Assembly: GCA_002433675.1 (NCBI GenBank) | Contig: DJIP01000211.1 | Location: forward strand, 1-43,027 | Origin: Halomonas halophila | Lineage (GTDB): Bacteria > Pseudomonadota > Gammaproteobacteria > Pseudomonadales > Halomonadaceae | Length of the DNA: 43,027 nucleotides | Reading direction: 5' to 3' | Shown here: positions 4,445 to 25,540 of the stretch, piece after piece | Position numbering within the stretch: position 1 is the first letter of the stretch | Layout: each line of letters begins with the position of its first letter | The notes under the pieces: model-generated | Told to the model about the DNA's origin: nothing | Databases searched by the model: none | Seen by the model: the letters and a program-made list of their open reading frames with translations, nothing else | Made by a program: the position numbers and the translations under genes

Positions 4445-4538
4445 GGTAGCCTCAGCCATTGATGGAAAGACGATTCCTGCAAGGATGACGGGGTTAGGGG
4501 GGGCGTGTCTGAACGAATCAACCTGCCTGACATAGACA

Positions 4539-4572
4539 GCCCCCGGTAGGTGAGGCATCACTCACCAGGGGC
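4539..4572. terminator. Hairpin between convergent genes
   Basis: GCCCC...GGTGAG-GCATCA-CTCACC-A-GGGGC folds into a two-part stem between the oxidoreductase (plus) and the DoxX gene (minus). There is no long T-run, so it is only a plausible bidirectional terminator. Confidence 0.4.
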
Positions 4573-4595
4573 GCGTCTGTTCTGGCGACGTCGCC

Positions 4596-5030
4596 TCAGG
4601 CGGTGACGGGTGATGCCGGGCGTTCCAGCGTCAGCAGGGTGTCGTGGTCGCGCAGGCGATAGAGGGTGTAGCAGGCGGCCAGCATCGGCAGGGCGGCGAA
4701 GAACAGCATATGGCCGAAGGGATCGGTCACCATCGCCGGGATAGTCACCAGCGTCGAGACGCCGTGCACCAGCAGCACGCCACCATAGCTTATGCGCTTG
4801 AAGCTGCCGCTGACGAAGGCCAGGATCAGCACCAGTTCGAGCACTCCCAGCGCCACCACGACGGCGGTGCCGACGCCGGCGATGCCGAAGTACTTGTCCA
4901 TGATCCCGCTGCCCTGGCTTGGGTTGATGAACTTGCTCAGGGTCCAGACCAGCAGTACCAGAAAGATGCCTACGCGCATCGCCAGCAGTCCGCCCTTGAG
5001 GCCCGCCATCTCGTTTCCTTCAGTGTGCAT
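4596..5030 (-). CDS. DoxX-family small membrane protein
   Basis: About 144 aa with four predicted transmembrane helices: near residues 15-32, 50-72, 80-100 and 107-125. The pattern RVGIFLVLLVWTLSKFINP and a following long helix matches DoxX/DoxD-like integral membrane proteins, whose biochemical role is generally uncertain (redox or membrane stress in some bacteria). Two starts are credible: the ATG at 5030 (AAGGAAG in front) and the ATG at 5009 (GAAGGAAACGAG in front), giving 144 or 137 aa. It stands alone on the minus strand, converging on the oxidoreductase, so no partner can be inferred. Confidence 0.8.
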   Translation of the reverse strand: MHTEGNEMAGLKGGLLAMRVGIFLVLLVWTLSKFINPSQGSGIMDKYFGIAGVGTAVVVALGVLELVLILAFVSGSFKRISYGGVLLVHGVSTLVTIPAMVTDPFGHMLFFAALPMLAACYTLYRLRDHDTLLTLERPASPVTA

Positions 5031-5153
5031 TTGAACTTCCTTGGTCGTCTGTCAGGGGATGGTGCTCGCTGGACGAGCACCGTGCGGGGGTGGGTCGCAT
5101 CCGAAGGCGGGACCTTACAACCAGAAGGAAGAAATCTGCGGCTCATGGCTTCA

Positions 5154-5181
5154 GGCGCCCGTCCCTTTCGGGATGGGCGCC
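5154..5181 (-). terminator. Strong stem-loop after the hydroxylysine operon
   Basis: GGCGCCCGTCCC-TTTC-GGGATGGGCGCC forms a 12-bp stem (one G-U pair) 70 bases beyond the stop codon of the last operon gene. There is no U-tract, so it may stabilise the mRNA 3' end or act with Rho. Confidence 0.5.
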
Positions 5182-5250
5182 AGGCTGGGGAAACGAGGAC
5201 GAGCGGTTTCGATAAGCGTTGCTCGCGGGCAAGCCTGTCCAGAGAAGGGC

Positions 5251-6009
5251 TTATCGAGGAAAATACTGGTCGTAGATCGCTTCGTAGGTGCCGTCCTGCC
5301 TCAGCTCCGACAATGCCAGGTTGAACTTGTCCGCGAGCGCCTCGTCGCGTTGACGAAAGGCGATACCAAAGCCCTCGCCGAAGTATTTCACGGGTTCGTT
5401 GACCAGTTCGCCGACCACGCGATACTCGTCGCTGTCGTTCAGCAGGGTGGCGACACCGGCGGGATGGTCAAGGAAGATCAGGTCCACGCGTCCGGTCTTG
5501 ATGTCCATGATCATGTCGGATGTGGTGGAGTATCGGTTGATGTCAGCGACGCTGCCAAAGGTATCGGTCACGTAGCTGTCCTGCAGTGTGCCGCGCTGCA
5601 CGCCGATGGTTCTTCCTGCCAGCGTCTCGCTGTCGACCTTGTCCAACTCGAGGTCAACGCCACCAAACCAGGCCGAATACGGCTTGATGTAGGGGTCAGA
5701 GAACAGTACGGTCTCGCGCCGGGATTCATTGATGGTCATGGATGACATGATGGCGTCGTACTTGCGTGACAAGAGGCCAGGGATGATGCCGCTCCACTCC
5801 TGCACGATCCATTCACACTCGAGCGACAGGTGGTCGCACAAGGCATTGCCCAGGTCGATGTCGAAGCCGGTCAGTTCGCCGTTGGGTAGCCGGTACTCCA
5901 TCGGCGCGGTCGGAACATCCACGCCAAAGCGTAAGGTATCCTCGGCCATGGCCGAGTCGGCCAGGGGCATCAACAGTGCGGTGGCAAGAGCGGGGAGGGT
6001 ATTGTTCAT
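5251..6009 (-). CDS. ABC transporter periplasmic binding protein, Lys/Arg/ornithine type
   Basis: About 252 aa, exported: signal peptide of ~22 residues ending SAMA before EDT. The mature protein follows the LAO/HisJ pattern: FGVDVPTAPMEYR near the N terminus, GFDIDLGNALC, the Cys58-Cys65 pair with the seven-residue spacing seen in LAO/HisJ, MSSMTINESRRETVLFSDPY with the ligand-carboxylate Arg, and the C-terminal GTYEAIYDQYF. It is last in an operon with two HisQ/HisM permeases, a HisP ATPase and hydroxylysine-type catabolic enzymes. The likely ligand is a basic amino acid, and from context 5-hydroxylysine. TAGGAGAAAG precedes the ATG. Direct ligand identity cannot be read from sequence. Confidence 0.93.
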   Translation of the reverse strand: MNNTLPALATALLMPLADSAMAEDTLRFGVDVPTAPMEYRLPNGELTGFDIDLGNALCDHLSLECEWIVQEWSGIIPGLLSRKYDAIMSSMTINESRRETVLFSDPYIKPYSAWFGGVDLELDKVDSETLAGRTIGVQRGTLQDSYVTDTFGSVADINRYSTTSDMIMDIKTGRVDLIFLDHPAGVATLLNDSDEYRVVGELVNEPVKYFGEGFGIAFRQRDEALADKFNLALSELRQDGTYEAIYDQYFPR

Positions 6010-8351: not shown

Positions 8352-11156
8352 TCAGTCGCAATACAGGTCAAAGCTTGCTTCGAGCAGGGTCAGGAAATGC
8401 TGGATATCAGCTTCCTCGATTACCAGGGGCGGCTTGATCTTGAGCACGTTGTCGTCGGGGCCATCGGTGGACAGCAGCACGCCATTGAGTCGCAGGAAGT
8501 GGCAGATGCGCTTGGCGGTGGCGCTATCAGGCGCGAGCGCTGGTCCATCGACGATTTCCACGCCGATGAAAAGCCCCTGGCCACGCACCTGGCCGACCCT
8601 GGAGAAACCCTCTGAGAGAGCCGCCAGACGTGACTTCAGCATGTCACCGAGGGCCAGGGCACGATGCTGAAGACCTCGGGATTCGATTTCGTCGAGCACG
8701 GCGAGGGCGATGGAGCAGGACACCGGGTTGCCGGAGAAGGTGTTGAAGTACTCCATGCCGGTCTTGAAGGCTTCTGCCACTGCCCGGGTGGTGACCACTG
8801 CCGCAATGGGATGACCGTTGCCGATAGGCTTGCCCAGGGTGACGATGTCGGGACGCACCGCATACTGCTGGAAGGCCCAGAAGCTGCTGCCGGCGCGCCC
8901 GAAGCCCACCTGCACCTCATCGGCGACGTAGAGGGTGCCTTGCGCCTGTAGATGGCGGGTCAGTCCCTCGATGTAGGTCTTGGGCCAGATCCACTGCCCG
9001 CCGACACCGGCGAAGCTCTCGGCGTAGAACGCCGCCGGTTGTTCGCGGGCGCCGGCCAGGACATCCTTGGCATCGGCCAGATAGCGTTCGGCGGCGTCCT
9101 CAGTGCGGTATTGCCCGCGATAGGTATCGGGGAACGGCAGCTTGAGCACATGAGGGGGCGTTCCCTGTCCGCCAGGCCCATCGTGCTTGTAGGGGCTGAT
9201 ATCGATCAGGCTCGACAGGTGGCCATGGTAGGCGTGGTCGAGTACTGCCAGGTCGTGGCGTCCGGTGAAGTTGCGCGCCAGGCGCATGGCCAGGTCGTTG
9301 GCCTCGCTGCCGGAGTTGACCAGAAAGACGACTTCCAGATGGTCGGGCAGCGTGGCCAGCAGGCGCTCGCTATAGCTGACAATGGTGTCGTGGAGGTAGC
9401 GGGTGTTGGTGTTCAGCTCGGCCATCTGGCGACAGCCGGCCTCCACTACTCGGGGGTTGGCGTGTCCGACATGGCAGACATTGTTGACCAGATCCAGATA
9501 GCGCCGGCCATCCTCCGCGATCAGGTGGGCCATGTCGCCGCGCACAATCTTCAGGGGATGCCGATAGGCATGGCTCAAGGTGGGCGAAAGTAGCTGACGA
9601 CGGGCATGCAGCAGGGTCGCCACGCTCTGTCGGCCGCCGTAGACCTGACCATGTCCCAGCGCCAGCCTGGGGTCGAGGTAGGCGTCACTCACCGGCTCCC
9701 AGGTATCGGCCGGCAGGTTGCTGCGCTGGCGCAGGCCACCGCTGTCATCGTCTCCCCACAGGCAGGTCAAGGTGATTGCCTGGCCGGCCTCGAGGGGGAG
9801 TCGAAAACCCTCCATGCTCAGCTTGGCCGGGGCCAGCGGCGAGTCGCCTTCGGCGCCCTCGACGATAACGCTGAGGCGTCCCAGTTCACGGTCCTGAAGG
9901 CCGATCGACAGTCGATCTCCACGTTGGTCGACCCGCGTCACGCGGATCGTGTTACGCAGCTCGATAGGCCCGTGTGCGATAAAGGTTTCCCCTGTCGCGA
10001 TATAAGCGGGTTTGCCGTCGACGGGCGTGGCGAAGGTCTGCTGCGGTGTCAGCAAGTCGGCCACCGACTGGCCGCCGATATCGATAATGCCACGTTGCGC
10101 CAGCAACGAGCGGCGCGCCGGCAAGAGAGAAAGGCCGCTATCCGGCAGGCAGGCGGCCATCAGTTCTTCGCCGATCACTCCTGGGCTCAAGGTGGTAAAG
10201 AGCTGCCACTGTCTCAGCAACTGCTCTTGGGAAATGGCAATGTAGGGATCCTCGGCGCCAACCTTTCGCGCTTTCAGATAATTCAGTCGGCTGAGGGCAA
10301 TGCGCAGCAGCATGAGCCGCGGTAGACACTCGAGTTCCACAGGCGTCAGCGGCCGCACGGTGTGATACCCCAGCGTCAACTGCTTGAGCGCCTCGAGTCG
10401 GTCGAGGCTGCGGTCGGTCAGATATACCGCAGCGACAGCGAGTTCGTTGACGGCGAAGGCCACGCAGGCGTCGCCAAAATCGATCAGCGCACTGGGGCGT
10501 TCCGATGTCGGTGAGTCGAGAAACAGGTTGTAGTCGTTGGCGTCGTTGTGGATCAGCTGGCGGGGCAGTTCGCGCTCACGCACCCGGATGAAGTCGACAC
10601 AGGCGGCCAGCTGGTCGCACAACTCACGCTCCAGATCGTCGATCTCGGGACGCGCCAGCAGTGAGCGATAGTGGCTCGGATCCCAGTCATGGCTGGACTG
10701 CCCCAGCCAGCCCAGGGCGGCAATGTCCAGCTCGGCCAAGGCGCGATCGAGGTGACCAAGGCCTTCACCGGTGGCATACAGCTGGGCGTTGCTGGGGGGC
10801 AGGCCCTTGGCCCACAGGGTGCCGTCGAGATAGCTCAGCAGACGCAGGTGCCAGACCTCGTCATCCAGCGTCAGTGTCACGCTTGCCTGGCCGTTCAGGC
10901 TGCGGCGGTGGTGTGGCAACCTGAGCTCTCCCGGGGGGCGCGCTTCCAGCGCCGTCATTAGCGCCACCTCTGCGGCGACGCTCGAAGCCTGGCTCAGCTT
11001 GACCAGGTAGCGGCTAGCGTCGTCCAGGGTCAGGCAGAAGTTCCTGTCGGTGTAGCCATCCAGGCGCTCGAGGCGCCCTGTCAGGCCGTAGCTCTCGGCC
11101 AGCGCATGGTGCACGCATCGCTCGATGCGTTCGGCTGCGGTCTGGGTCTCTGACAT
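8352..11156 (-). CDS. Fused hydroxylysine kinase-like / PLP phospho-lyase (class III aminotransferase fold)
   Basis: About 934 aa in three parts. Residues 1-330 are an aminoglycoside-phosphotransferase-fold kinase with the catalytic loop H203-N-D205-x4-N210 and the metal-binding IDFGD at D226, resembling human hydroxylysine kinase (HYKK). Residues 345-505 are a middle region I do not recognise. Residues 510-934 are a class III PLP enzyme with [33 protein letters not shown] and the Schiff-base Lys776 in [11 protein letters not shown]. This is the pattern of the phospho-lyases AGXT2L1/ETNPPL (phosphoethanolamine) and AGXT2L2/PHYKPL (5-phosphohydroxylysine). One polypeptide would phosphorylate a hydroxy-amine and eliminate ammonia and phosphate to an aldehyde. 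The alpha-aminoadipate semialdehyde dehydrogenase in the same operon favours 5-hydroxylysine. I chose the ATG at 11156, with GAGGA upstream and 10 bases after the antiporter stop. Confidence 0.88.
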
Positions 11157-11166
11157 CAAGGTGTCC

Positions 11167-12675
11167 TCAGGCATGGTCGGGTTGTTCGCGATGGCGTTTG
11201 CCGGCGGTGGGCAAGGATCGTGCGTCGATGTCGCGCAGGATATTGCGGCCCAGCAAGGCGCAGGCGAGCGCCAGCATCAGGTTGGTCAGGGAGAAAAAGG
11301 CAAAGGGGGCATAGAGCAGCGTCGGGACGCCCAGCGTCGCGGTCAGGAAGGCACCACAGGTGGTCCAGGGAATCAGTGGCGAGACGACAGTCGAGGCATC
11401 TTCCAGGGCCCGGGACAGATTTTCCGGAGCGAGCCCGAACTCCTCGTACTTCTCCTTGAACATGCGCCCCGGCAGGATATTCCCCATGTACTGGCTGCCG
11501 GTAAGCAGCAGCGTCGTCAGGCAGGCCAGATGGGTGGAGAGGACCAGCGTACCAGGGGTTCTGGCATGGCGCGTCAAGGTTTCGACCAGGCGTCCAAGGA
11601 AGCCGGAACTGGCCATGACGCCGCCGAAGGACATCGCCGCGACGACCAGCCAGAGCATGTAGAGCATGCCGTACATGCCACCCTTGCTCAGGATGCGGTC
11701 GAAGTGAGCATCGCCGGTGGTGGCCACGTAGCCGTTGGAAATCGACCGAACGACACCTTCGACCAGGGGCAGCATGGAATTGTCGGACATTGCTGCCAGG
11801 CGCAGGGTGTTGTCTGACTGCCACAGCACCGCCGCCAAAGCACCCATCATCAGCCCGATGAACAGTGTCGGGATGGCGTCGACCTTGCAGTAGGCCAGTA
11901 TCAGTACCGCTATCAAGGGGGCAAGCAGCAGTGGGCTGATGACGAAATTGGCGTCGAGCAGAGAGCGCAATTCGACGATACGCTCCAGGTTGCCGCTGGT
12001 GCCGGTGGCCAGAAGGCCGATGATCCAGTAAAGCACCAGGCTGATCGCGAGGCTGGCAAATACGGTTCGCGACATTGCCTTGATATGACGAAACAGCTCG
12101 CCACCGGAGACCGCTGCGGAAAGGTTGGTCGTGTCCGAGAGCGGAGAAAGCTTGTCACCGAAATAGGAGCCCGAGACGATGGCGCCGGCGGTGATGGCGG
12201 TGGAAAACCCTACCGACTCGGCTATGGTGATCAGCGCTAGACCAATGGTACCAGCGGTCGTCAGACTGCTTCCGATACTGACCGCGATGATGGCGCAGAT
12301 CAGACAGGCGCTGAAATAGAAGGCGTCGCCGGACACCAGGAAGGAGCCGTAGTAGATCATGCTGGGCACGATGCCGGACAGGATCCACACACCGATCAGC
12401 CCACCGACCAGCAGGATGATGATGATGGCGTTCATCGAGACGTTGATGCCCTCGAAGATGCCTTGCTTCAGCACGCTGAAGCGTTCGCCGCGAGCCATGG
12501 CGAGCCCCGCGGCCAGGGCGGCGGAGCCAATCAGGGCAAGCTGCACGGGGCCACCCAGGGACTCGCCCTGGAACATGTAGATCATCAGGGTGATCGAGGC
12601 GATGGCGACGACCAACGGGGTCATCGCCATGGCCAAGGGAGGCGCAGGACGCTGATGCGTGCGAGTCAGGGGCAT
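11167..12675 (-). CDS. NhaC-family Na+/H+ antiporter-like transporter
   Basis: About 502 aa with 11-12 hydrophobic helices. The family-typical stretch SYFGDKLSPLSDTTNLSA near residue 170 and the paired domains around it identify the NhaC group. Members exchange Na+ for H+, but some exchange carboxylates (malate/lactate type), and riboswitch-linked members are thought to move lysine. Its place between the M23-like gene and the kinase/phospho-lyase gene in a basic-amino-acid catabolic operon makes a second substrate carrier, or export of a product or counter-ion, as plausible as Na+ homeostasis. A GGAG lies eight bases before the ATG. Substrate not determinable from sequence. Confidence 0.88.
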   Translation of the reverse strand: MPLTRTHQRPAPPLAMAMTPLVVAIASITLMIYMFQGESLGGPVQLALIGSAALAAGLAMARGERFSVLKQGIFEGINVSMNAIIIILLVGGLIGVWILSGIVPSMIYYGSFLVSGDAFYFSACLICAIIAVSIGSSLTTAGTIGLALITIAESVGFSTAITAGAIVSGSYFGDKLSPLSDTTNLSAAVSGGELFRHIKAMSRTVFASLAISLVLYWIIGLLATGTSGNLERIVELRSLLDANFVISPLLLAPLIAVLILAYCKVDAIPTLFIGLMMGALAAVLWQSDNTLRLAAMSDNSMLPLVEGVVRSISNGYVATTGDAHFDRILSKGGMYGMLYMLWLVVAAMSFGGVMASSGFLGRLVETLTRHARTPGTLVLSTHLACLTTLLLTGSQYMGNILPGRMFKEKYEEFGLAPENLSRALEDASTVVSPLIPWTTCGAFLTATLGVPTLLYAPFAFFSLTNLMLALACALLGRNILRDIDARSLPTAGKRHREQPDHA

Positions 12676-13713: not shown

Positions 13714-15207
13714 TCAGTCGAAGGTGATGCCCTGGGCCAGGGGCAGTTCGCGAGAGTAGTTCACCGTGTTGGTCTGGCGCCGCATGTAGCTCTTCCACAC
13801 ATCCGAGCCGGATTCGCGACCGCCACCGGTTTCTTTTTCTCCGCCGAAGGCACCACCGATCTCGGCGCCGCTGGGACCAATATTGACGTTGGCGATACCG
13901 CAGTCACTGCCCATATCGGAGATGAAGCCCTCGGCCTCGCGCACGTCGCTGGTGAAGACGCACGACGACAGACCCTGGGGCACGTCGTTGTTCATGGCGA
14001 CGGCATCGTCCATTTCGCGATAACTCATCACGTAGAGAATCGGGGCGAAGGTTTCGTGACGCACGACCTCGGACTGCCCCTCCATCTCGACGATGGCGGG
14101 AGCCACGTAGTAGCCGTCAGGGTAGCGATCGGCAAGCTGGCGCTCGCCGCCGTAGACCTGGGCGCCGAGTTGGCGGGCGGTACCCAGCGCCGACTGCATC
14201 TGGTCGTAGGCCTGGGCATCGATCAGTGGGCCGACCAGGTTGCCCTGCATCGGGTCACCGATGGAGATGCCGGCATAGGCGCGCTTCAGGCGAGTCATGA
14301 CCTCGTCACGGATCGACTCGTGAACGATCAGTCTGCGCAGGGTGGTACAGCGTTGCCCTGCGGTGCCGACCGCCGAGAACAGGATGGCGCGCACGGCCAT
14401 ATCGAGGTCCGCGCTGGGGGCCAGGATCATGGCGTTGTTGCCGCCGAGCTCGAGAATGCTGCGGCCAAAGCGTGCCGCCACCCGAGGAGCAACCTCGCGG
14501 CCCATGCGAGTGCTTCCGGTCGCGCTGATCAGTGGCACACGGCTGTCGTCGGTCAGCCGCTCGCCGGCGGCACGATCGCCGATCACCACCTGGCTGAGGT
14601 GCTTCGGCGCTTCGTCGCCGAACTCATCCATGGCGCGCTCGAGCAGTGCCTGACAGGCTAGCGCCGACAGGGGGGTCTTTTCCGAGGGCTTCCACACCAG
14701 GCTATTACCGCACACCAGCGCCAGTGCGGCATTCCACGCCCACGGCGCCACGGGGAAATTGAACGCCGTGATCAAGCCGATCGGGCCAAGCGGGTGCCAG
14801 CTCTCGCGCATGTGATGGCCGGGGCGCTCGGAGGCAATGGTCAGGCCGAACAACTGGCGAGACTGGCCCACCGCCAGGTCGCAGATGTCGATCATTTCCT
14901 GAACTTCGCCGAGGCCTTCCTGGTAGATCTTGCCGCACTCGATGGTCACCAGGGCGCCCAGATCCTCCTTGTGACGGCGTAGCTGTTCGCCAAACAGCCG
15001 AACCAGCTCGCCTCGGCGGGGTGCGGGCACTTGACGCCATGTTTCGAAGGCCTGTTGCGCGCGTCCGATACTGGCTTCCATGGCGTCAGCGTCCTGCAGC
15101 GTGACGCGGCCGATTTCGGCTCCGTCGGTGGGGCTGGTTACCGAGTAGTCGCCCTGGCGGTACAGCGCGGTCGGGACTCCCAGGCGTTGCATGATGGCGT
15201 CGATCAT
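13714..15207 (-). CDS. amaB: Alpha-aminoadipate semialdehyde (piperideine-6-carboxylate) dehydrogenase, ALDH7 family
   Basis: About 497 aa. General base Glu253 in ILELGGNN and nucleophile Cys287 in GQRCTTLRR. The C-terminal signature SDCGIANVNIG, SGAEIGGAFGGEKE and GGGRESGSD is diagnostic of the ALDH7/antiquitin group, which oxidises 2-aminoadipate-6-semialdehyde to 2-aminoadipate with NAD+. That aldehyde is exactly the product of 5-phosphohydroxylysine phospho-lyase, encoded three genes on in the same direction. First gene of the operon; the divergent LysR gene begins 446 bases away. TAGGAG precedes the ATG at 15207; an upstream in-frame ATG lacks a ribosome binding site. Lysine catabolism through piperideine-6-carboxylate could also use it. 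Confidence 0.93.
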   Translation of the reverse strand: MIDAIMQRLGVPTALYRQGDYSVTSPTDGAEIGRVTLQDADAMEASIGRAQQAFETWRQVPAPRRGELVRLFGEQLRRHKEDLGALVTIECGKIYQEGLGEVQEMIDICDLAVGQSRQLFGLTIASERPGHHMRESWHPLGPIGLITAFNFPVAPWAWNAALALVCGNSLVWKPSEKTPLSALACQALLERAMDEFGDEAPKHLSQVVIGDRAAGERLTDDSRVPLISATGSTRMGREVAPRVAARFGRSILELGGNNAMILAPSADLDMAVRAILFSAVGTAGQRCTTLRRLIVHESIRDEVMTRLKRAYAGISIGDPMQGNLVGPLIDAQAYDQMQSALGTARQLGAQVYGGERQLADRYPDGYYVAPAIVEMEGQSEVVRHETFAPILYVMSYREMDDAVAMNNDVPQGLSSCVFTSDVREAEGFISDMGSDCGIANVNIGPSGAEIGGAFGGEKETGGGRESGSDVWKSYMRRQTNTVNYSRELPLAQGITFD

Positions 15208-15653
15208 TGTTTCTCCTACGGGTGGCATTCGAAGTCGTGACCCCGGAATTATTGGCGGGCTGGCATCTCAGGCTCAAACGACGAATACTCTCGAGATCAT
15301 TCCAGAAATTCGCTTATCAGCACGAAAGCCTGCAATGCCCGAAAAGGGGAGCACGCCAGGTCTGCTCACCTGGCTCTACTTGCAGTCCTGCACAAGTCTA
15401 CGCAATATGCTCTGGAGACCCCCCCTTTGCTGCGAGGTGTGGCGAGACAAGCGATGTCGAGCAGGATGCGGCAAACGACCGCGGAAAAGGCCCTCGGCGC
15501 TGGCCGTAGACTGACGGTGTGTGGAGCCGGGCGTCGCCGTTGCCCCTGACGCATTGGTAACGTCGACGGCAGAGTGTTGACGCCAGAAGTCGGCGTCTTG
15601 CTTGATAGTTGTTCCGGTGTTCATTCCAATTTTTCTGGTTTAGTGAGGCTGTC
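15208..15653. promoter_or_regulatory. Divergent regulatory region, ALDH7 operon / LysR
   Basis: 446 bases without a supportable gene. It holds GAAT-N12-ATTC at 15283-15302, a 12-mer at 15298-15309 that recurs before the aminotransferase gene, and CATTCCA...TTTCTGG at 15622-15638 directly before the LysR gene. These look like LysR-type binding elements for activation of the operon and autoregulation. No clear -35/-10 pair could be assigned. Confidence 0.55.
15298..15309. promoter_or_regulatory. Candidate LysR element CATTCCAGAAAT
   Basis: CATTCCAGAAAT here is identical, on the opposite strand, to ATTTCTGGAATG at 21010-21021. Both lie in divergent spacers flanking operons that sit either side of two paralogous LysR genes. 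Confidence 0.5.
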
Positions 15654-16702: not shown

Positions 16703-17608
16703 CTACTCTGGTTGTGCCTGTGGCGCGGCGCAGCCTTTGAGGTGGTCGACGAACTGGCGCACCTTGGCGAGCTCGCCCAGGTGCTCAGGGTAGACCAGGT
16801 AGTAGGCGTTGGGACCGCGCAACAGGGTGGGCCAGGCGGGGACCAGGGCGCCGGCTTCCAGTTCGTGGTCGATCATGAAGCGTGGAATCAGGGCAAGGCC
16901 GCCGCCGGCCATGACCGTGCGAATCAGCGTCTGAAAGGTCTCGAAGCGGATGCCGTGGTAGCTGCGATCGGTGCGAATGCCCTGTTCGTCGAACCAGCGG
17001 TGCCAGGCGTCGGGGCGGGTCGAAAGGTGCAGCAGCCGACAGGCGGCCAAATCGGCGGGGCTGTCGATGCGCTGGCGCGCCAGATAGCCGGGTGCGCCGA
17101 CCGCCATCACCTCTTCCTCGAACAGCTTGTGACATTCGAGGTTGGGCCAGCTGCCGTGGCCGTGGAAGATCGCCACGTCGATGCCTTCGTTTTCCAGATC
17201 GAAGGTCTCCACGCGGTCGGACAGGTGCAGGGTGATACCGGGGTGAGCCTCGAAGAAGGCCGGTAGCTGCAACGACAGCCAGCGAGTGCCGAAGGTAGGA
17301 AGCGTGGCCACCTTGAGCACGTCACCGTGGCCGCTGTAGGTCATGATGGCGTTGGCCGACATCTCGAGGTGGGCCAGGATCTTGCGCACCTCGGTCAGGT
17401 ACAGCGAGCCCTCCGGCGTCAGCACCAGGGTGCGCCTGAGTCGACGGAAGAGCTTGTGCTGAAGGTAGTCCTCGAGCTGTGCCACCTGCTTGCTGATGGC
17501 GCTCTGGGTGATGCTCAGCTCATCCGCCGCCCGGGTGAAACTCAGGTGCCGGGCGGCGGCTTCGAAACACTGAAGCGTGGTGGTCGAGGGGAGATGACGG
17601 GCCTTCAT
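16703..17608 (-). CDS. LysR-family regulator, GcvA-like (paralogue 2)
   Basis: About 301 aa. The HTH is near residues 10-45 (FTRAADELSITQSAISKQV) and the effector domain follows. It differs from the other LysR here mainly by conservative changes, so the pair arose by duplication. It lies 176 bases downstream of the TRAP permease gene on the same strand and has its own upstream spacer, which contains a near-palindrome CATTTTTCGAAATG at 17677-17690. It probably controls the TRAP/aminotransferase/dehydrogenase genes, or shares targets with its paralogue; both operons' spacers contain the same 12-mer. Confidence 0.92.
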   Translation of the reverse strand: MKARHLPSTTTLQCFEAAARHLSFTRAADELSITQSAISKQVAQLEDYLQHKLFRRLRRTLVLTPEGSLYLTEVRKILAHLEMSANAIMTYSGHGDVLKVATLPTFGTRWLSLQLPAFFEAHPGITLHLSDRVETFDLENEGIDVAIFHGHGSWPNLECHKLFEEEVMAVGAPGYLARQRIDSPADLAACRLLHLSTRPDAWHRWFDEQGIRTDRSYHGIRFETFQTLIRTVMAGGGLALIPRFMIDHELEAGALVPAWPTLLRGPNAYYLVYPEHLGELAKVRQFVDHLKGCAAPQAQPE

Positions 17609-17784: not shown

Positions 17785-19743
17785 TCAGCGCTGAGCCGAC
17801 GTCGCCGTATCCATGGGCTCCTCGGGGCGGCGTGACTGCCACAATGCCACCAGCGCCAGGGCCACCAGTCCCAGGCTGCTGGTGATGGGGGCCGGGGCCA
17901 CCATGGCCAGGCCCGCTGCCAGCAGCACCGCACGCTCCCACATCAGGGCATCGCGCACGAAGTGGCCGATCAAAGCGGCGCTTACGCCGACCAGGCCCAC
18001 CAGCAGGAAGCCGACATCGCGTACCAGGCCGAGCGGTGTGGCGTCGATCATCACCAGCGCCGGGTTGTAGATCAGTGCGTAGGGAATGATGAAGGCTCCG
18101 ATGGCCAGTTTCAGTGCCGTCACCCCGGTCTTCATCGGATTGGCCCCGGCGATCCCTGCGCCGGCGTAGGCCGCGAGGCAGACCGGTGGCGTGATGTCGG
18201 CCACGATCCCGAAGTAGAATACGAACAGGTGCACCGCCATGGGCGCCAGGCCAAACTCGTTGATCAGCGCCGGCGCGGCGATGGTCGCGGTGACGACGTA
18301 GTTGGCGGTGGTCGGCAGGCCCATGCCCAACACGATGCAGGCCAGCATGGTGAAGATCAGGGCGAGGATCAGGGTGCCGTCGGCCAGGCTGATGATGCCA
18401 GCGGCGAACTTGGCGCCCAGTCCGGTCATGCCCACCACCCCGGCGATGATGCCGGCGGTGGCCACCGCGGCGATCACCGGCAGCGCGACCCTGGCGCCCT
18501 TGTCCAGCAGGCGTACCAGGTCGGCAAGCGACGGCCGGGTCTCCTTGCGCAGCAGGCTGACCGCCAGCGCTGCGGCGATGCCCAGCAGGGCGGCACGCTG
18601 GGCGGTGAAGCCGACGCTGACGGTGGTCACGATCACCGCCAGCGGAAGCAGCATGTACCCCTGACGCATCAACAGCTTGCGCTTGCTGGGAAGCTGGTCC
18701 TTGGGGATGCCCAGGATACGGCTGCGTTTGGCCTCGAAGTGCACACCGATAAAGATACCGGTGAAGTACATCAGCGCCGGTATCAGAGCGGCGTACATGA
18801 TCTCGCGATAGGACACGCCGACGTACTCGACCATGATGAAGGCGGCCGCGCCCATCAGCGGCGGCATGATCTGCCCACCGGTGGAGGCCGACGCCTCGGT
18901 GGCGGCGGCGACCTCGGGGCGGAAGCGGGCGTTCTTCATCATCGGAATGGTGAAGGAGCCCGAGGCCACGGTGTTGCCCACCGAACTGCCCGAGATCATG
19001 CCCTGCAGCGAGCTTGCGATCACCGCCGCCTTGGCGGTCCCGCCGGTGAAGCGACCGGTGGCGGCGAAGGCGAGGTCGTTGAAGAAGCGGCCGACCCCGG
19101 TCTGGATCAACACCACGCCGAAGAACAGAAACAGGAAGATGAACTTCGCCGAGATCTGCAGGGGCGTGCCGAACACGCCGCTTTCGCGGAACCACAGATA
19201 GGGCGCGACCTGCTCGAGCGAGAACCCCGGGTGGGACAGCAGCGCCGTCGGAATATGGTTGCCCAGCAGGGCATAGGCCAGCGCCAGCAGGGCCACGATC
19301 ACGATGGGCAAGCCGACGGTGCGACGCGTCGCTTCCAGCACGAACAGCACACCGGCGCCGGCCACGATCAGGTCCAGGGTGGAATAGCCGGTGATGCGGG
19401 CGCGCAGGACCTCGTCGTAGAACAGGATCTTGTAGTAGGCGCCAAAGGTGGCGGTGAAGGCCAGTACCACGTCGTACCAGGGCACCGCTCGGCGGGCGCG
19501 CTCGCCGCGACAGGCAGGGAACAGCAGGAAGATCATCCCGAGCGCGAGGCCCAGGTGAACCGCCCCTTGCTGTTGCGATGGCAGGGTACCGAAGTAGCCG
19601 GTATAGAGGTGAAAGGATGTCAGCGCGATGCCAAGCAGCGACACCGCCCAGCCCCAGCGGCCCAGGTGAGCGCGAACGCTGGACTCCCGGTCGTACTTCT
19701 CGAGCAGTTGCCGAGAGGCATCGGCCGTTGTTTTTTCGACCAT
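17785..19743 (-). CDS. TRAP transporter fused permease (DctQM type, TAXI-associated)
   Basis: About 652 aa from the ATG at 19743, which has GGGAGA in front; an earlier in-frame ATG would add 19 residues with no advantage. The N-terminal third holds about four or five helices equivalent to the small DctQ subunit, and the rest holds the 12-helix DctM part with GSSVGNTVASGSFTIPMMK, GGQIMPPLMGAAAF and GMGLPTTANYV. Such fused 4TM/12TM permeases work with TAXI binding proteins to import organic or amino acids using the Na+ gradient. The adjacent upstream gene encodes that binding protein. Diverging genes for an aminotransferase and a D-2-hydroxyglutarate dehydrogenase suggest a C5/C6 dicarboxylate or amino-dicarboxylate substrate. 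Confidence 0.93.
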   Translation of the reverse strand: MVEKTTADASRQLLEKYDRESSVRAHLGRWGWAVSLLGIALTSFHLYTGYFGTLPSQQQGAVHLGLALGMIFLLFPACRGERARRAVPWYDVVLAFTATFGAYYKILFYDEVLRARITGYSTLDLIVAGAGVLFVLEATRRTVGLPIVIVALLALAYALLGNHIPTALLSHPGFSLEQVAPYLWFRESGVFGTPLQISAKFIFLFLFFGVVLIQTGVGRFFNDLAFAATGRFTGGTAKAAVIASSLQGMISGSSVGNTVASGSFTIPMMKNARFRPEVAAATEASASTGGQIMPPLMGAAAFIMVEYVGVSYREIMYAALIPALMYFTGIFIGVHFEAKRSRILGIPKDQLPSKRKLLMRQGYMLLPLAVIVTTVSVGFTAQRAALLGIAAALAVSLLRKETRPSLADLVRLLDKGARVALPVIAAVATAGIIAGVVGMTGLGAKFAAGIISLADGTLILALIFTMLACIVLGMGLPTTANYVVTATIAAPALINEFGLAPMAVHLFVFYFGIVADITPPVCLAAYAGAGIAGANPMKTGVTALKLAIGAFIIPYALIYNPALVMIDATPLGLVRDVGFLLVGLVGVSAALIGHFVRDALMWERAVLLAAGLAMVAPAPITSSLGLVALALVALWQSRRPEEPMDTATSAQR

Positions 19744-19803
19744 GGCGTGAATCTCCCGATGATCGTCAGGCGCCGACACGCCGGCGCCCGACGATGACAT
19801 GGT

Positions 19804-20805
19804 TTACTTGGCGAGGTCGTCGAGGCTGGTGATACCGCTGTCTTCGCGGGTCACGATCTGGATGACTTCCGGATAGATGTGGCCGATAAAGGCGACGTTG
19901 CCGATGGCGTTGTCGTCGAACTCACCGTTGCCGGACACCGCGTCCTTGGCCGGTGCGTGCACGGTCATGCCCAGGTCCATGCGGTCGTCACGAATGCTGA
20001 CGAGGTTTTCGATGGAGGCACCGGTCTCGATGTTGGTGAAGTTGGCCCCGTCGAGATAGTTGTTCCAGATGGTGGCCATCTCGCCACCCAGCGGGTAGTA
20101 GGTGCCGCCCTGGCTGCCGGTACCGAGGATGTACTCGCTCTTGTCGCCCTGGATCTCGAGCTGAGCCACCGGGTTGCTCACCTCCAGCCCCTGCTCTTCG
20201 TAGTAGCGCTTGGCACCGGGATGGATCGGGATGCCAGCGGAGCCGTTCAGTGCATTCTCCAGGGTCATGAAGGCGGACTGGGCGTGGGTGTTTTCTTCGG
20301 CCTTCTCGTGCATCAGGCGAGCCAGTTCATAGCCCAGCTCCTCGTCGATGCTGTGGGTGTTGCCCACCAGCACGGCGTAGGCGGTCACCGTGGTCACGTC
20401 CTGGTCAAGAAACTCGTAGCTGTCCTGGGGGATGACGAAACGACGGTACTCGCTGTTGGCTTCGATATAGTCCACCGCCTCGTCGCCGAGGCCGATCATG
20501 CGAACGTCACCGGCGGCTGCCTGAAGGTTCTCGATGCTGCCGGACGGCAAGCCGAGGATGCCGATCGATAGATCGATATTGCCATCCTGCACACCGTCGA
20601 GGGCCGCGCCGAAACCTTCCTGATAGGCGCTGTAATCGTCTTCCTTCACCCCGTGGGCGTCGAGCAGCAGCTTTGACACCAGTTGGGTGGTGCTGGCGGG
20701 CGGGCCGATCGCCACGTTCGGGGTAGAGGAGGCTCCGTCGCTGCAGGCGCTGAGAAGAGTGGATGCGGCGATGGCGATCGCGGCCGGCTTCAGGGGATGA
20801 GTCAT
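19804..20805 (-). CDS. TAXI-family TRAP solute-binding lipoprotein with permuted domain order
   Basis: About 333 aa. A lipoprotein signal ends LLSAC with the lipid-acceptor Cys21. In known TAXI proteins (for example the Thermus thermophilus glutamate-binding one) the order is GTGSQGGTYYPLGG, then YPEVVQVV..SGI-SLDDLKGK, then a VGAPGSGT segment, and finally LPLHPGA-RYYKE. Here residues 30-205 are the second block (VAIGPPASTT through IPIHPGAKRYYEEQG), a linker follows (206-223), and residues 224-333 are the first block (ILGTGSQGGTYYPLGG through IYPEVIQIVTREDSGI-SLDDLAK, then stop). Both blocks look complete and undamaged. No leftover TAXI coding is seen in the 60 bases after the stop or before the start. 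CAGGAA precedes the ATG. It should serve the TRAP permease downstream. Confidence 0.9.
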   Translation of the reverse strand: MTHPLKPAAIAIAASTLLSACSDGASSTPNVAIGPPASTTQLVSKLLLDAHGVKEDDYSAYQEGFGAALDGVQDGNIDLSIGILGLPSGSIENLQAAAGDVRMIGLGDEAVDYIEANSEYRRFVIPQDSYEFLDQDVTTVTAYAVLVGNTHSIDEELGYELARLMHEKAEENTHAQSAFMTLENALNGSAGIPIHPGAKRYYEEQGLEVSNPVAQLEIQGDKSEYILGTGSQGGTYYPLGGEMATIWNNYLDGANFTNIETGASIENLVSIRDDRMDLGMTVHAPAKDAVSGNGEFDDNAIGNVAFIGHIYPEVIQIVTREDSGITSLDDLAK

Positions 20806-21110
20806 GTGACGTTCCTGTCGTTGAGGTGATGTCGTGGCTCTCTGGCCATGTTTTTTTGGCTATTGTTGCTGGCGCATGCAGAGCGGCGGGCATTGTTACC
20901 ACGAGCCTTTATCACCCACAAAAGAAATCTAATACTCGATCTATTCCTTTTGCTCATTTACGTGCCGATGCCGCAGTTTCTCGGGCGGATGTCGACGCGT
21001 CTGGTATTCATTTCTGGAATGCATAAGACGCTTTTTTTCGTTTGAAGAGCTCCAGTGCCACTGGTTTCATCGTCGTCCTGAATTCCTCGACGATTCGACA
21101 GGTACCGAAC
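20806..21110. promoter_or_regulatory. Divergent regulatory region, TAXI-TRAP / aminotransferase
   Basis: 305 bases, more AT-rich than its surroundings, especially 20930-21045. It includes ATTC-N7-GAAT at 21006-21020 and the 12-mer shared with the hydroxylysine operon spacer. No ORF here is supportable. Confidence 0.55.
21010..21021. promoter_or_regulatory. Candidate LysR element ATTTCTGGAATG
   Basis: Reverse complement of CATTCCAGAAAT at 15298-15309; here embedded in an ATTC-N7-GAAT dyad. Lies about 90 bases before the aminotransferase start. Confidence 0.5.
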
Positions 21111-22358
21111 ATGGACTTTCCTCACGTCAGCGCCTCGCTGGGCATCGTTCACCCCTTGTGTGTGGAGCATGGGCGCAACGCTGAGCTATGGGACGAGGAC
21201 GGTCGACACTACGTCGACTTTATCGGCGGCATCGGCGTGCTCAATCTGGGCCATGGGCATCCGGCGGTAGTGGAAGCGGTGAAAGCCCAGGTGGATCGGC
21301 TGATGCATTCCGCCTTCAACGCCTTGCCCCACCGCGGCTACCTGGAGGTGGCCCAGGCGCTCGATGCCTTCGTGCCGGTGTCCTACCCACTGTCGTGCAT
21401 GCTGACCAACTGCGGGGCCGAGGCGACCGAGAATGCCCTCAAGGTGGCGCGAGCGGCGACCGGTCGTCAGGCGGTCATCGCCTTCGATGACGGTTTTCAC
21501 GGCCGCACCCTCGCGGCGCTCAACCTCAACGGCAAGGTCAAGCCCTACAAGTCCGGACTAGGCAGTTTGCCGGGGCCGGTGTATCACCTGCCGTTCCCGA
21601 GCCGGGACAACGATGTCAGCACCGAGCAGGCCATACACGCCCTCGACCGTCTGCTCGAGGTCGAGCTGCCCGCTGACGAGATCGCCGCGATCATCGTCGA
21701 GCCGGTGCAGGGCGAGGGCGGCTTCCGCCTGCTCGATGCGACCTTCGCCGCGCACCTTCGCGAATTCTGCGACCGCCACGGCATGGCGCTGATCTTCGAT
21801 GAGATCCAGTCCGGCTTCGGGCGTACCGGTAGGCGTTTTGCGTTCACCCATCTGGGCGTCGAGCCTGACCTGCTGTTAATGGGCAAGAGCATGGCGGCGG
21901 GGCTGCCGCTGGCGGCGGTGGTCGGCAAGTCCCGATTCATGGATGCCCTGCCCAAGGGTGGGCTCGGCGGGACCTACTCCGGCAACCCGGTGGCCTGTGC
22001 GGCGGCTCGTACGGTGATGGAGGTGATGAGCGAGGCGCGCTTGGCGCGCTGGAGCGAGGCCCAGGAGGCGCTGATCGTGGCGACCCACGCCCGCCTGAAG
22101 GAGCGCTTTCCGATGGTGGGGGCCTTGACCGGGGTAGGTGCCATGCGCGGGATCGTGTTCAACGATACCGCGCGGGCCAGCGGTGCCGAGCACCTGGCCG
22201 CGTTGCTGGCCGCCGGACGCGAGGCAGGGGTGCTGCTGATGCCGAGCGGGCGTCGCCGCAACGTGCTGCGCCTGCTGGCCCCGCTGACCGCGGAGCCTGA
22301 GGTGCTGAAAGAAGGCATGGCGCGGCTGGAGCGTGCGTTGGCGACGCTCACGCCATGA
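21111..22358 (+). CDS. Class III aminotransferase (GabT-like)
   Basis: About 415 aa. PLP-enzyme motifs in order: GIGVLNLGHGHP, NCGAEATENALKVARAATGR, DGFHGRT, IVEPVQGEGG, FDEIQSGFGRTG, and the Schiff-base Lys in LLLMGKSMAAGLP. The sequence groups with 4-aminobutyrate/5-aminovalerate/omega-amino-acid transaminases using 2-oxoglutarate. Overlaps the next gene, a D-2-hydroxyglutarate dehydrogenase, by four bases (ATGA), so the two are translationally coupled. Together with the ALDH7 operon this suggests a 2-aminoadipate (or 5-aminovalerate/GABA) transamination, an inference only. I chose the ATG at 21111; a TTG at 21042 would add 23 unlikely residues. Confidence 0.88.
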   Translation: MDFPHVSASLGIVHPLCVEHGRNAELWDEDGRHYVDFIGGIGVLNLGHGHPAVVEAVKAQVDRLMHSAFNALPHRGYLEVAQALDAFVPVSYPLSCMLTNCGAEATENALKVARAATGRQAVIAFDDGFHGRTLAALNLNGKVKPYKSGLGSLPGPVYHLPFPSRDNDVSTEQAIHALDRLLEVELPADEIAAIIVEPVQGEGGFRLLDATFAAHLREFCDRHGMALIFDEIQSGFGRTGRRFAFTHLGVEPDLLLMGKSMAAGLPLAAVVGKSRFMDALPKGGLGGTYSGNPVACAAARTVMEVMSEARLARWSEAQEALIVATHARLKERFPMVGALTGVGAMRGIVFNDTARASGAEHLAALLAAGREAGVLLMPSGRRRNVLRLLAPLTAEPEVLKEGMARLERALATLTP

Positions 22359-25300
22359 TTGCCCGGATCGCCCCCCGTGATGACGCCCGCCACGACGCCC
22401 GGAAGGATGCGGGGATGGACGTGGCCACGAGCTATCGGCGTTTTCTCGAGGCCCTGGTGGACCAGGGCTTCGAAGGGGAGATAGCCCCTGACTACGCCAA
22501 TCGCACGGTGCTGGCCACCGACAATTCGATCTACCAGCGCCTGCCCCAGGCGGTGCTCTATCCTCGCGGGACCGAGGATCTGGTGCGTATCGCCGAGCTG
22601 GCGGGGCGCGAAGCGTTCCGCCAGGTGGTGCTGGCGCCCCGGGGAGGAGGCACCGGCACCAACGGGCAATCCCTGACCGATGGTCTGGTCGTGGATGTGT
22701 CGCGGCACATGAACGCCATCCTCGAGATCGACGTGGCACGCCGCCGGGTGCGCGTCCAGGCCGGGGTGGTCAAGGATCAGCTCAACGCCGCGCTCAAGCC
22801 CTACGGACTGTTCTTTGCCCCTGAGCTGTCCACCTCCAACCGCGCCACCCTCGGGGGCATGATCGCCACCGATGCCAGCGGTCAGGGCAGCTGCGAGTAC
22901 GGCAAGACCCGCGATCATGTGCTGGAACTCGAGAGTGTCCTGCTGGGCGGCGAGCGCCTGGTCAGCCGCCCAGTGGACGAGTTCGAGCTGGCGGCGCTGT
23001 GCGCTCGCAAGGACGGTGTGGGCCGCGTGCACCGCGTCGTCCGCGACATTCTCGAGCGCGAAGGTGAGCGTATCGAGGAGACCTTTCCGCCGCTCAATCG
23101 CTGCCTCACTGGCTACGATCTTGCCCACCTGACCACGGCGGATGGCCGCGTCGACCTCAACAGCGTGCTGTGCGGCGCCGAGGGTTCGCTGGCCTTCACC
23201 AGCGAGGCGGTGCTCCGGGTGCTGCCGATCCCGGCCCACTCGACCCTGGTCAATGTTCGCTACGCCGGCTTCATGGAGGCGCTGGGTGACGCTCGGGCGT
23301 TGATGACCAGCGACGCCGTTCCCACCTCCATCGAAACGGTGGACGAGCGGGTGCTGGAGCTGGCCCGTGGTGACTATGTCTGGGACTCGGTCAGCGAATT
23401 CTTCCCCAATGCCGGCGATATCCGGACCCAGGGCATCAACCTGGTCGAGTTCAACGATGATGATCCGGCGCGGCTGGGACGCCGGGTCGAGGCCTTTTGC
23501 CGGTATCTGGACGAAGACTCGAGCGTCAGGCGTCTGGGCCACACCCTGGCCCAGGGACGCGAGGCGATTACCCGGGTTTATGCCATGCGCAAGCGTGCGG
23601 TGGGGTTGCTGGGCAATGTGGCCGGCGAGAAGCGTCCGCTGCCCTTTGTCGAGGACACCGCCGTGCCCCCCGAGCACCTGGCGGACTACATCGCGGAATT
23701 TCGCGCCTTGCTCGACGCCAGGGGGCTTGAGTACGGGATGTTTGGACACGTCGATGCCGGGGTCCTGCACGTGCGTCCGGCGCTGGACATGAAGGACCCC
23801 GCTCAGGTGGCGTTGATTCGCGAGATCACCGATGAGGTCGCCGAGCTGACGCGCAAGTACGGCGGGCTATTGTGGGGCGAGCATGGCAAGGGCATTCGCT
23901 CGGAGTATGCCCCGGCCTTCTTCGGGCCGCTCTACCCCAGCCTGCAACGGCTCAAGGGCGCCTTCGACCCCTGCAATCAACTCAACCCAGGCAAGATCGC
24001 GACACCGCTCACCGATCCCCCCACCGATTCACTCGACGACGCCGGCCAGACGACGGGCCGTGAGAGCGACCCGGGGCTGCTCGCGGTGGATGGGGTGGCG
24101 TTGCGTGGTCAGTTCGATCGCCAGATCGACGAGCGGGTGTGGCAGGCCTACGGCGAGGCGGTGTACTGCAACGGCAACGGCGCCTGCTACAACTACCATC
24201 CTGAAGACGCCATGTGCCCTTCGTGGAAGGCGACGCGGCAGCGTATCCACTCACCCAAGGGGCGTGCCAGCCTGATGCGTGAATGGCTACGCCAGCAGCA
24301 ACTGGCGGGTGTCGATGTGCTGGACGTGTCCCGACGGCTGCGCAAGCGCAGCGCCTGGGCGGCGCTCAAGGCCTTTCCCGCAAGGCTGGGGCGAAGCCTG
24401 TCGCATCGTCGCGGCGAGCGGGACTTCTCGCATCAGGTGCATGAGGCCATGGCCGGCTGTCTGTCGTGCAAGTCCTGCGCCGGACAGTGTCCGATCAAGG
24501 TCGATGTACCGAGCTTCCGGGCGCGTTTCCTCGAGCTCTATCACAGCCGCTACCTGCGCTCACCGCGGGACTACCTGGTCGGAGGGCTGGAAATCATGCT
24601 GCCGGCACTTTCGCGGTTTGCGCCGCTGTACAACGCCACGCTGCGAATACCAGGAGTTGAGCGCCTGATGGCCGGTGTCTTCGGTGTGGTCGACAGTCCA
24701 CGGCTGTCACCGGAGCGCCTCGATGGTTGGCTCTATCGCCATGGGGTCGAGCGGGCCACGCCAGAGGCGCTCAAGCGCCTGGACGAGGCGGAAAAGGCGC
24801 GCAGCGTGGTGCTGGTACAGGACGCCTTCACCAGCTACTTCGAATCCCGTCTGGTGATGGATACCGTCGAGTTGCTGGAAGGGCTCGGGGTGAGGGTGTT
24901 CGTGGCCCCCTATGGCCCCAACGGCAAGCCGCTGCATGTCCAGGGCTTTCTCGGAGCCTTCGAACGCACCGCCGCAAGGCAGGCCGAGCGCCTGCGGGCG
25001 CTGGCCGAGGCCGGGGTGGCGCTGGTCGGCATCGACCCGGCCATGACGCTGACCTATCGCCAGGAGTACGTGAAGGCACTGGGCGCCGCTGCGGTGCCCC
25101 AGGTGCAACTGCTGGGCTCCTGGCTGGTGCAGTGGCTGGCGAGCAGACCGCGAGCGTCGCAACAAGCCGCACGGTCGTCGGTCACCAAGGACCCGGGCTA
25201 TCGGTTGCTGCTTCACTGCACCGAGGCGACCCATGTGACCGGGGCAGCCAAGGACTGGCAGCGTCTGTTCGAAGCCTTTGGTCTGTCGCTCGAGGTACTG

Positions 25301-25540
25301 CAAAGCGGCTGTTGTGGCATGGCGGGCACCTACGGCCATGAAGCGGAACATCGCCAGACCTCTGCGCTCATCTACGCGCAATCCTGGCAGTCCCGGGTCG
25401 AGGATCCGGGGCTTCAGGGACGCCTGTTGGCCAGCGGCTATTCCTGTCGCTGCCAGGCTCGGCGATTTTCCAGCGCCGACTTGCCACATCCACTTCAGGG
25501 GCTACTCGCCTGCGTGAGGCATCGAACCAAGACTGAGTAA
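22355..25540 (+). CDS. ydiJ: YdiJ-type D-2-hydroxyglutarate dehydrogenase (FAD, Fe-S)
   Basis: About 1061 aa. FAD-binding PCMH domain around residues 60-250 with PRGGGTGTNGQSL at 95-107, FAD-oxidase C-terminal domain to ~560 (FGHVDAGVLHVRP), a Cys-rich segment near 605 (CNGNGACYN..MCPS), a ferredoxin-type cluster near 700 (CLSCKSCAGQCP) and a CCG cysteine-rich domain (SGCCGMAG near 985). This is the architecture of YdiJ, oxidising D-2-hydroxyglutarate (or D-lactate) to 2-oxoglutarate. The DNSIYQ..P.AV..PR segment near residue 57 matches YdiJ N termini. The ATG at 22355 overlaps the aminotransferase stop; an ATG at 22415 with GGAAGG in front is an alternative start. Probably membrane-associated electron delivery. 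Confidence 0.9.
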   Translation: MIARIAPRDDARHDARKDAGMDVATSYRRFLEALVDQGFEGEIAPDYANRTVLATDNSIYQRLPQAVLYPRGTEDLVRIAELAGREAFRQVVLAPRGGGTGTNGQSLTDGLVVDVSRHMNAILEIDVARRRVRVQAGVVKDQLNAALKPYGLFFAPELSTSNRATLGGMIATDASGQGSCEYGKTRDHVLELESVLLGGERLVSRPVDEFELAALCARKDGVGRVHRVVRDILEREGERIEETFPPLNRCLTGYDLAHLTTADGRVDLNSVLCGAEGSLAFTSEAVLRVLPIPAHSTLVNVRYAGFMEALGDARALMTSDAVPTSIETVDERVLELARGDYVWDSVSEFFPNAGDIRTQGINLVEFNDDDPARLGRRVEAFCRYLDEDSSVRRLGHTLAQGREAITRVYAMRKRAVGLLGNVAGEKRPLPFVEDTAVPPEHLADYIAEFRALLDARGLEYGMFGHVDAGVLHVRPALDMKDPAQVALIREITDEVAELTRKYGGLLWGEHGKGIRSEYAPAFFGPLYPSLQRLKGAFDPCNQLNPGKIATPLTDPPTDSLDDAGQTTGRESDPGLLAVDGVALRGQFDRQIDERVWQAYGEAVYCNGNGACYNYHPEDAMCPSWKATRQRIHSPKGRASLMREWLRQQQLAGVDVLDVSRRLRKRSAWAALKAFPARLGRSLSHRRGERDFSHQVHEAMAGCLSCKSCAGQCPIKVDVPSFRARFLELYHSRYLRSPRDYLVGGLEIMLPALSRFAPLYNATLRIPGVERLMAGVFGVVDSPRLSPERLDGWLYRHGVERATPEALKRLDEAEKARSVVLVQDAFTSYFESRLVMDTVELLEGLGVRVFVAPYGPNGKPLHVQGFLGAFERTAARQAERLRALAEAGVALVGIDPAMTLTYRQEYVKALGAAAVPQVQLLGSWLVQWLASRPRASQQAARSSVTKDPGYRLLLHCTEATHVTGAAKDWQRLFEAFGLSLEVLQSGCCGMAGTYGHEAEHRQTSALIYAQSWQSRVEDPGLQGRLLASGYSCRCQARRFSSADLPHPLQGLLACVRHRTKTE

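Follow-up and report, generated by a model that had tools for sequence, protein, structure and literature searches.

The protein P0001, encoded in a 43,027-nucleotide stretch of Halomonas halophila DNA (assembly GCA_002433675.1, contig DJIP01000211.1, positions 1 to 43,027; hereafter the window), carries the two conserved blocks of a TAXI solute-binding protein (SBP) in swapped order. We consider it very probable that P0001 is a genuine and functional circular permutant of this class of TRAP transporter receptor, with the origin and role that are proposed below. The swapped order is conserved, occurs in a single clade of our sample, and is accompanied by a linked TRAP permease gene and by pocket residues that can be identified by alignment. 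The gene and its parts are the following.

19804..20805, minus strand: circularly permuted TAXI SBP P0001, 333 amino acids (aa), with an ATG start and without an internal stop
20743..20805, minus strand: lipoprotein signal, residues 1-21; signal-peptide-like residues 1-20 end in LSA and complete the lipobox LSAC with Cys21
20191..20718, minus strand: original C-terminal block (C-block), residues 30-205 (VAIGPPAS to HPGAKRYYEEQ), from profile matches, Protein Data Bank (PDB) sequence matches and the structure model
20137..20190, minus strand: linker between the original C and N termini, residues 206-223, of conserved length across the clade
19807..20136, minus strand: original N-terminal block (N-block), residues 224-333 (GTGSQGGTYYP to SLDDLAK), from PDB sequence matches, the structure model and a rotated search

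A Shine-Dalgarno-like AGGA lies upstream of the ATG. The C-block holds the rest of domain 2, the second hinge strand and the C-terminal part of domain 1, and the N-block holds the start of domain 1, the first hinge strand and the first helix of domain 2. A first-pass annotation had described this layout from the letters of the window, without naming a strand, and its details hold up: the open reading frame (ORF) is clean on the minus strand, the lipobox is present, the break falls between SLDDLAK, which is the present C-terminus, and the NVAIG strand, which has come to lie close to the N-terminus, and the linker, given as 18 residues, measures approximately that. The claimed 60-base gap to the permease gene is correct with the likely permease start at 19743. 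No leftover fragments flank the gene, as had been claimed, since the TAXI profile finds only the two pieces of P0001 on C354, the contig that contains the window.

Family profiles match P0001 in two pieces because its block order is swapped. The Pfam profile NMT1_3 (PF16868) scores 204.5 bits (cut-off 27) over two stretches, the best of which places residues 30-206 on positions 113-289 of 289, and the NCBIfam profile TRAP_TAXI (TIGR02122) likewise scores 220.4 bits (cut-off 84.35), with residues 31-206 on positions 144-320 of 320 as its best stretch. A profile search of the P0001 genome locates the second piece (profile positions 27-140) downstream within the same gene. P0001 is thus a TAXI protein by curated cut-offs, but it departs from the N-to-C order that is usual in this family and that the profiles do not use as a criterion. 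All seven PDB TAXI sequences that were found also give two-stretch matches to unrotated P0001 (at best 95.9 bits), with query residues ~30-207 falling on the C-terminal part of the PDB chains; the swapped order is displayed for the best three. When P0001 is rotated at the linker, all seven match as a single stretch, and the best of these (114.9 bits) aligns query residues 6-292 to chain positions 6-297. The doubled-sequence alignment that the first-pass annotation had proposed as a check gives the same picture. Of 96 canonical TAXI proteins, 95 align with doubled mature P0001 in one uninterrupted piece of 250 or more residues, and none of the 96 does so with the undoubled sequence, so the full-length fit in canonical order that would have spoken against a permutation is absent.

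Homologues with the same order, also suggested as a check, are numerous. A motif test finds the permuted order in all 120 proteins that were listed as the best of 646 homologues. A genome scan yielded 254 stretches encoding relatives, and a permuted ORF is present in each of the best 80, which were fetched as loci from other records. These loci come from Halomonas, Vreelandella, Oceanobacillus, Virgibacillus, Siminovitchia, Sporosarcina, Psychrobacillus, Oceanimonas, Oceanisphaera, one Pseudomonas and one Castellaniella metagenome-assembled genome. Two hidden Markov models (HMMs) with identical columns arranged in either order separate the proteins cleanly: 82 ORFs are permuted and 41 canonical, numbers that grow to 84 and 99 (80 and 96 distinct) with more loci, and 348 retrieved proteins divide into 134 permuted and 214 canonical. 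The occurrence is patchy. In the family to which the window belongs, 14 of 151 genomes have a relative in permuted order (E values up to 1e-70), and four of 150 genomes from the order of Oceanobacillus have a match (E values up to 1e-60). One of these four, G571, encodes a canonical protein, which leaves three of 150 with the permuted order. In phylum samples of 200 Pseudomonadota and 199 Bacillota genomes, split match pairs of the permuted type were found, among the matches listed, only in the two centre genomes, with one partial match in G221, and further independent permutants may exist. No relative turned up in a scan of viral contigs.

The G571 protein provides a direct counterpart in normal order. 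Its match is limited to the C-block, and the fetched gene encodes a canonical TAXI protein that reads through DLKGKRVAIGPPGSGTQ at the junction where permuted proteins end and start. The protein database assigns it to Pueribacillus theae (P0241, L185:7656-8678, minus strand), and its own TRAP permease gene adjoins it. The same locus contains a candidate class III aminotransferase gene (3977-5383). Among the best 120 relatives listed for P0241, 94 are canonical siblings and 26 are permuted (14 new and 12 already met). Named siblings come from Bacillus, Fredinandcohnia, Fervidibacillus, Caldalkalibacillus, Brevibacillus and one Candidatus Syntrophocurvum. In a comparison of P0241 with six permuted proteins, either half shows 53-69% identity.

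Phylogenetic analysis places the permuted proteins inside the canonical family. An IQ-TREE phylogeny was built on 101 rows, which comprise 38 permuted proteins, four permuted loci, 47 of the 94 siblings and 12 from a set of 120 canonical proteins that are more distant. It groups all 42 permuted rows as monophyletic, with an ultrafast bootstrap (UFBoot) support of 100 and a stem of 0.17 substitutions per site. A node that unites them with 32 canonical rows also has a support of 100. An earlier tree of other rows recovered a single permuted clade as well (35 of 35 rows, support 100); two TAXI proteins from the P0001 genome that appeared as its neighbours in the first tree were dropped from that position once closer canonical sequences were added. 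The first split in the clade separates P0322, P0335, P0342 and P0343 (support 100) from the other 38 rows (94). These four, two of which are named as Salinibacillus and Virgibacillus, have retained the GSGTQ motif of the siblings. The nine-row group around P0001 (100) combines with three Oceanimonas and Oceanisphaera loci into a group of 12 (86), which sits within a group of 29 (87) whose remaining rows are Bacillus-type or unnamed, together with the Castellaniella locus. The permutation that the first-pass annotation had proposed for one protein is supported, and it extends beyond that view to a conserved clade nested among canonical TAXI proteins.

The existence of close relatives in normal order suggests that the swap happened once, fairly recently and without visible loss of function. 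The ancestor would have been a TAXI lipoprotein in canonical order, and its host probably a Bacillus-type bacterium. The simplest route would be an in-frame tandem duplication, after which the N-block of the first copy and the C-block of the second were lost, and by this route the old N-terminal spacer region would become the internal linker. On the simplest reading, a single swap was apparently followed by later transfer from Bacillota to Halomonadaceae and other proteobacteria, with the direction suggested by the tree.

Details of the fold are taken from prediction. Structure prediction, another check that the first-pass annotation had proposed, gives AlphaFold2 models of P0001 and of the L002 protein with nearly identical lists of strands and helices in rotated order, and the predicted P0001 structure appears to contain the canonical elements. 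From the model, the break would lie in a domain 2 loop after the first helix, and both hinge strands and the ligand pocket would stay intact. With Foldseek, the top match of the permuted model is the TAXI structure 9ibp (206 columns, E value 9.1e-9, TM 0.45), and the L002 model reaches 307 columns (E value 1.3e-35, TM 0.85). No TAXI entry other than 9ibp is among the top 50 rows for the permuted model with Foldseek or VIA, and the best VIA match is 2b4l (OpuAC), over the whole length at 9% identity. Foldseek and VIA are sequential, order-dependent aligners, which explains these weaker TAXI matches; they show no difference in fold. Order-dependent searches by sequence or structure will in general align just a part of such permuted relatives.

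Cys21 is invariant in all 32 aligned rows (the window's row counted). Of 134 permuted proteins, 132 have a lipobox pattern, as do 207 of the 214 canonical ones. Since the lipobox is common to both orders, lipid anchoring probably preceded the permutation. The tether from the cysteine to the first strand has a median of seven residues in 133 of the 134 permuted proteins and of 25 in 92 of the 94 siblings. By the boundaries of the measuring script, the internal linker is 20 or 22 residues long in 131 of 134 permuted proteins, close to the siblings' tether, which fits an old N-terminal spacer that has turned into a linker. The signal and lipobox now stand directly ahead of the first strand of domain 2, through which the protein would be anchored. 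The permutation might even be an adaptive re-anchoring, in which the anchor moved from a long domain 1 tether to a short domain 2 tether and the old spacer became internal. If this doubtful idea were true, the protein would dock on its TRAP permease and open over it in a fixed orientation, and the topology would have been favoured, kept and spread across phyla, in parallel with the tether hypothesis for the treponemal protein TpMglB-2 that is discussed below.

The permuted protein is associated with a fused TRAP permease, whose gene follows it across a short spacer.

17785..19743, minus strand: fused TRAP permease (TIGR02123, 701.9 bits, cut-off 320.65); the longest ORF begins at an in-frame ATG at 19800
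19744..19803, minus strand: SBP-permease spacer with a strong GC-rich hairpin (-31.4 kcal/mol for 19744-19806, z -3.84)

The spacer hairpin possibly stabilizes the SBP message. A TRAP permease gene lies 3' of the permuted SBP gene in 79 of 80 loci. The permease beside the canonical P. theae sibling is 57% identical to that of the window, and that of a second, canonical TAXI system in L044 is 38-42% identical. Three Siminovitchia/Bacillus loci (L039, L044 and L048) contain such a second TAXI-TRAP pair, a canonical one, upstream of the permuted genes. In L044 and L048, the strand that carries the permuted TAXI-TRAP genes continues from ~11.2 kb onward with more genes, among them a 5-oxoprolinase/urea amidolyase-like gene (L044:14499-15470). 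The permuted TAXI gene at L042:4370-5368 has no TRAP permease gene within its 13 kb stretch, and the same genome has another permuted copy (L064); the L042 protein is a possible orphan receptor. In seven pairwise comparisons, the ratio of nonsynonymous to synonymous substitution rates (dN/dS) is 0.019-0.117, which indicates strong purifying selection.

We compared 14 pocket positions of the glutamate receptor VcGluP (13 from its paper, with S155 added) across the 32 aligned rows. The equivalents of S40, Y45, Y46, S75, E125, S155 and G203 (VcGluP numbering) are kept in all 32. Five positions are changed in every row (V44 to T, Q93 to V, H123 to Y, D157 to T and Y200 to G), and two are variable (G156 to E or T and M201 to I or V). 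The P0001 residue is the majority residue among the 94 siblings at 11 of the 14 positions, so the pocket was not created by the permutation. Siblings differ from P0001 at pocket position 39, where most have G, and at position 83, where most have L, and the position of Y237 is Y in 46 and F in 48 of them.

Three other explanations were weighed against this evidence. An artefact of assembly or annotation that scrambled the order in one genome might be suspected because the window's assembly is a draft of 400 contigs. Independent assemblies share the permuted order, however, which refutes this explanation: one assembly error, named by the first-pass annotation as a way in which its reading could fail, cannot account for the 120 listed homologues and 80 loci of other records, and dN/dS lies well below 1. 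We regard its probability as negligible. The blocks could instead have been brought together by domain shuffling from two different TAXI lineages rather than by rotation of one gene. The top canonical match does differ by block, being mostly P0296 or P0305 for the C-block and P0244 or P0278 for the N-block, but in all 134 permuted proteins both blocks find their best canonical match in the same sibling set (median identities 60.8 and 67.3%). Block medians are also well above those for the more distant canonical set (54.6 versus 35.2% and 60.4 versus 45.0%). This comparison argues against distant lineages only, and a chimera of any kind, including one of two close siblings, seems very unlikely. 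Even less probable is a degraded or moonlighting protein, for example a sensor, that no longer serves a TRAP permease. The L042 locus (one of 80) and the replacement by valine of the glutamine that binds glutamate in VcGluP would fit this explanation, but the adjacent permease at the other 79 loci, the strong purifying selection and a conserved pocket that is mostly common to canonical siblings speak against it.

A single rotation of one TAXI gene that left a functional protein thus best accommodates the data, and some results weigh against it. Directly above the permuted clade, two nodes reach supports of only 68 and 58, so that the canonical sister is not fixed, and some nodes within the clade are weak (48-55). 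No duplicated intermediate is found among the 348 retrieved proteins. In the models, helices near the old C-terminal part differ, with three listed for L002 (273-294) and one for P0001 (175-179), and the binding-loop region at residues 231-240 has a predicted local distance difference test (pLDDT) score of only 76. If the rotated protein functions as we propose, the mature lipid-anchored form would close on its ligand as a normal type II binding protein and hand it to the fused TRAP permease encoded by the adjacent gene.

The neighbouring genes suggest what this ligand may be.

16703..17608, minus strand: LysR/GcvA-like regulator (below the GcvA cut-off), linked to the transporter
21042..22358, plus strand: 2-aminoadipate transaminase (AADAT), divergent from the SBP gene (NF049976, 729 bits, cut-off 650)
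22355..25540, plus strand: D-2-hydroxyglutarate dehydrogenase YdiJ (NF049975, 1489.4 bits, cut-off 1350)
13714..15228, minus strand: L-piperidine-6-carboxylate (P6C) dehydrogenase, ~4.6 kb away (NF050084, 815.6 bits, cut-off 730)

A different contig of this genome encodes the 2-oxoadipate dioxygenase/decarboxylase HglS. At least one of AADAT, YdiJ and HglS is present in the stretches of 18 of 22 Halomonadaceae loci (L010-L031, except L015, a 4.3 kb contig, L017, L023 and L026). HglS-cluster members are found in all three Oceanimonas/Oceanisphaera loci and in the Pseudomonas locus (one member was tested against NCBIfam) and in none of the 53 Bacillota loci or the Castellaniella locus. The regulator cluster occurs in 26 of 81 stretches compared, and these 26 comprise 22 from Halomonadaceae (window included), three from Oceanimonas/Oceanisphaera and one from Pseudomonas. 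Elsewhere in the window, a 940 aa protein (8352-11174, minus strand) ends in a class III aminotransferase part (PRK06148-like, below cut-off) and adjoins an NhaC/ArcD-like antiporter (11167-12675, below cut-off), with the P6C dehydrogenase gene nearby. Together, these three genes resemble a region for lysine/pipecolate catabolism.

The most likely ligand is a lysine/2-aminoadipate pathway acid, such as 2-oxoadipate, 2-hydroxyglutarate or 2-aminoadipate. Acids of the 2-oxoadipate/2-hydroxyglutarate type are favoured by these gene neighbours and by a Proteus TAXI system that is reported to take 2-oxoglutarate and 2-hydroxyglutarate (PMC12344293, in excerpt), and L-2-aminoadipate comes next; we give these candidates jointly an even chance. 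No connection of 2-aminoadipate with a TRAP transporter was found in the open-access literature. Against this assignment, the 53 Bacillota loci contain no HglS or YdiJ cluster member and just two AADAT-cluster members, so that the proposal rests on the proteobacteria. L-glutamate, the ligand of VcGluP and TtGluBP, would be compatible with the Y45, S75 and E125 equivalents in all 32 rows. However, the pocket for glutamate in VcGluP depends on Y45 and Q93, of which P0001 keeps the tyrosine and has valine for the glutamine, a difference that concerns glutamate specificity and not family membership. Mutation of Q93 to alanine cost VcGluP 990-fold in affinity (PMC11574862, in excerpt), and Q93 is valine and Y200 glycine in every row, which makes glutamate an unlikely ligand.

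The first-pass annotation knew of no permuted TAXI protein, and no circularly permuted TAXI or TRAP binding protein was found in the open-access literature. Permutation is not mentioned in PMC2861598 or in the TAXI papers searched. Two apparent cases were rejected: in the excerpt of PMC7683729 the term belongs to a reference on Förster resonance energy transfer (FRET) sensors, and PMC3454389 concerns FRET biosensors. Permuted binding proteins have already been published for sugar and betaine ABC systems, and within the open-access literature the TAXI/TRAP case is apparently new.

VcGluP (8s4j/9ibo), TtGluBP (1us4/8u79) and other canonical TAXI proteins are homologous to P0001 over its whole rotated length. 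They are likewise receptors for a TRAP permease and share the pocket Tyr, Ser and Glu, but in P0001 the blocks are swapped, Q93 is replaced by V and Y200 by G, and the N-terminal anchor is on domain 2. P. theae P0241 and its siblings differ from P0001 by their canonical order, with DLKGKRVAIG read through at the point where permuted proteins start and end, and by their longer tether. According to the excerpt of PMC4990184, the 'Type Ic' sugar-binding lipoprotein TpMglB-2 (Tp0684) is also a natural circular permutant of a tethered binding protein, and it binds ligand and changes shape. It differs from P0001 in its Type I fold, its ABC/chemotaxis system and a different cut that adds a fourth hinge crossing, and its permuted part shares just 13% identity with its counterpart. 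Glycine betaine-binding proteins (2b4l and others) are two-lobed and mutually related by circular permutation (PMC2395249, in excerpt), but they serve ABC transporters and arose by a separate event, and 2b4l is only 9% identical to the P0001 model. In these published cases, as far as the excerpts describe them, permuted and normal forms are only distantly related in sequence. The canonical and permuted TAXI proteins, in contrast, co-occur in nature with halves that are ~60-67% identical, related permeases and a nearly equal pocket. Because such close unpermuted siblings exist, this case is unusually clean, and the effect of the rotation on folding, affinity, lipid anchoring and docking to the TRAP permease should be directly measurable.
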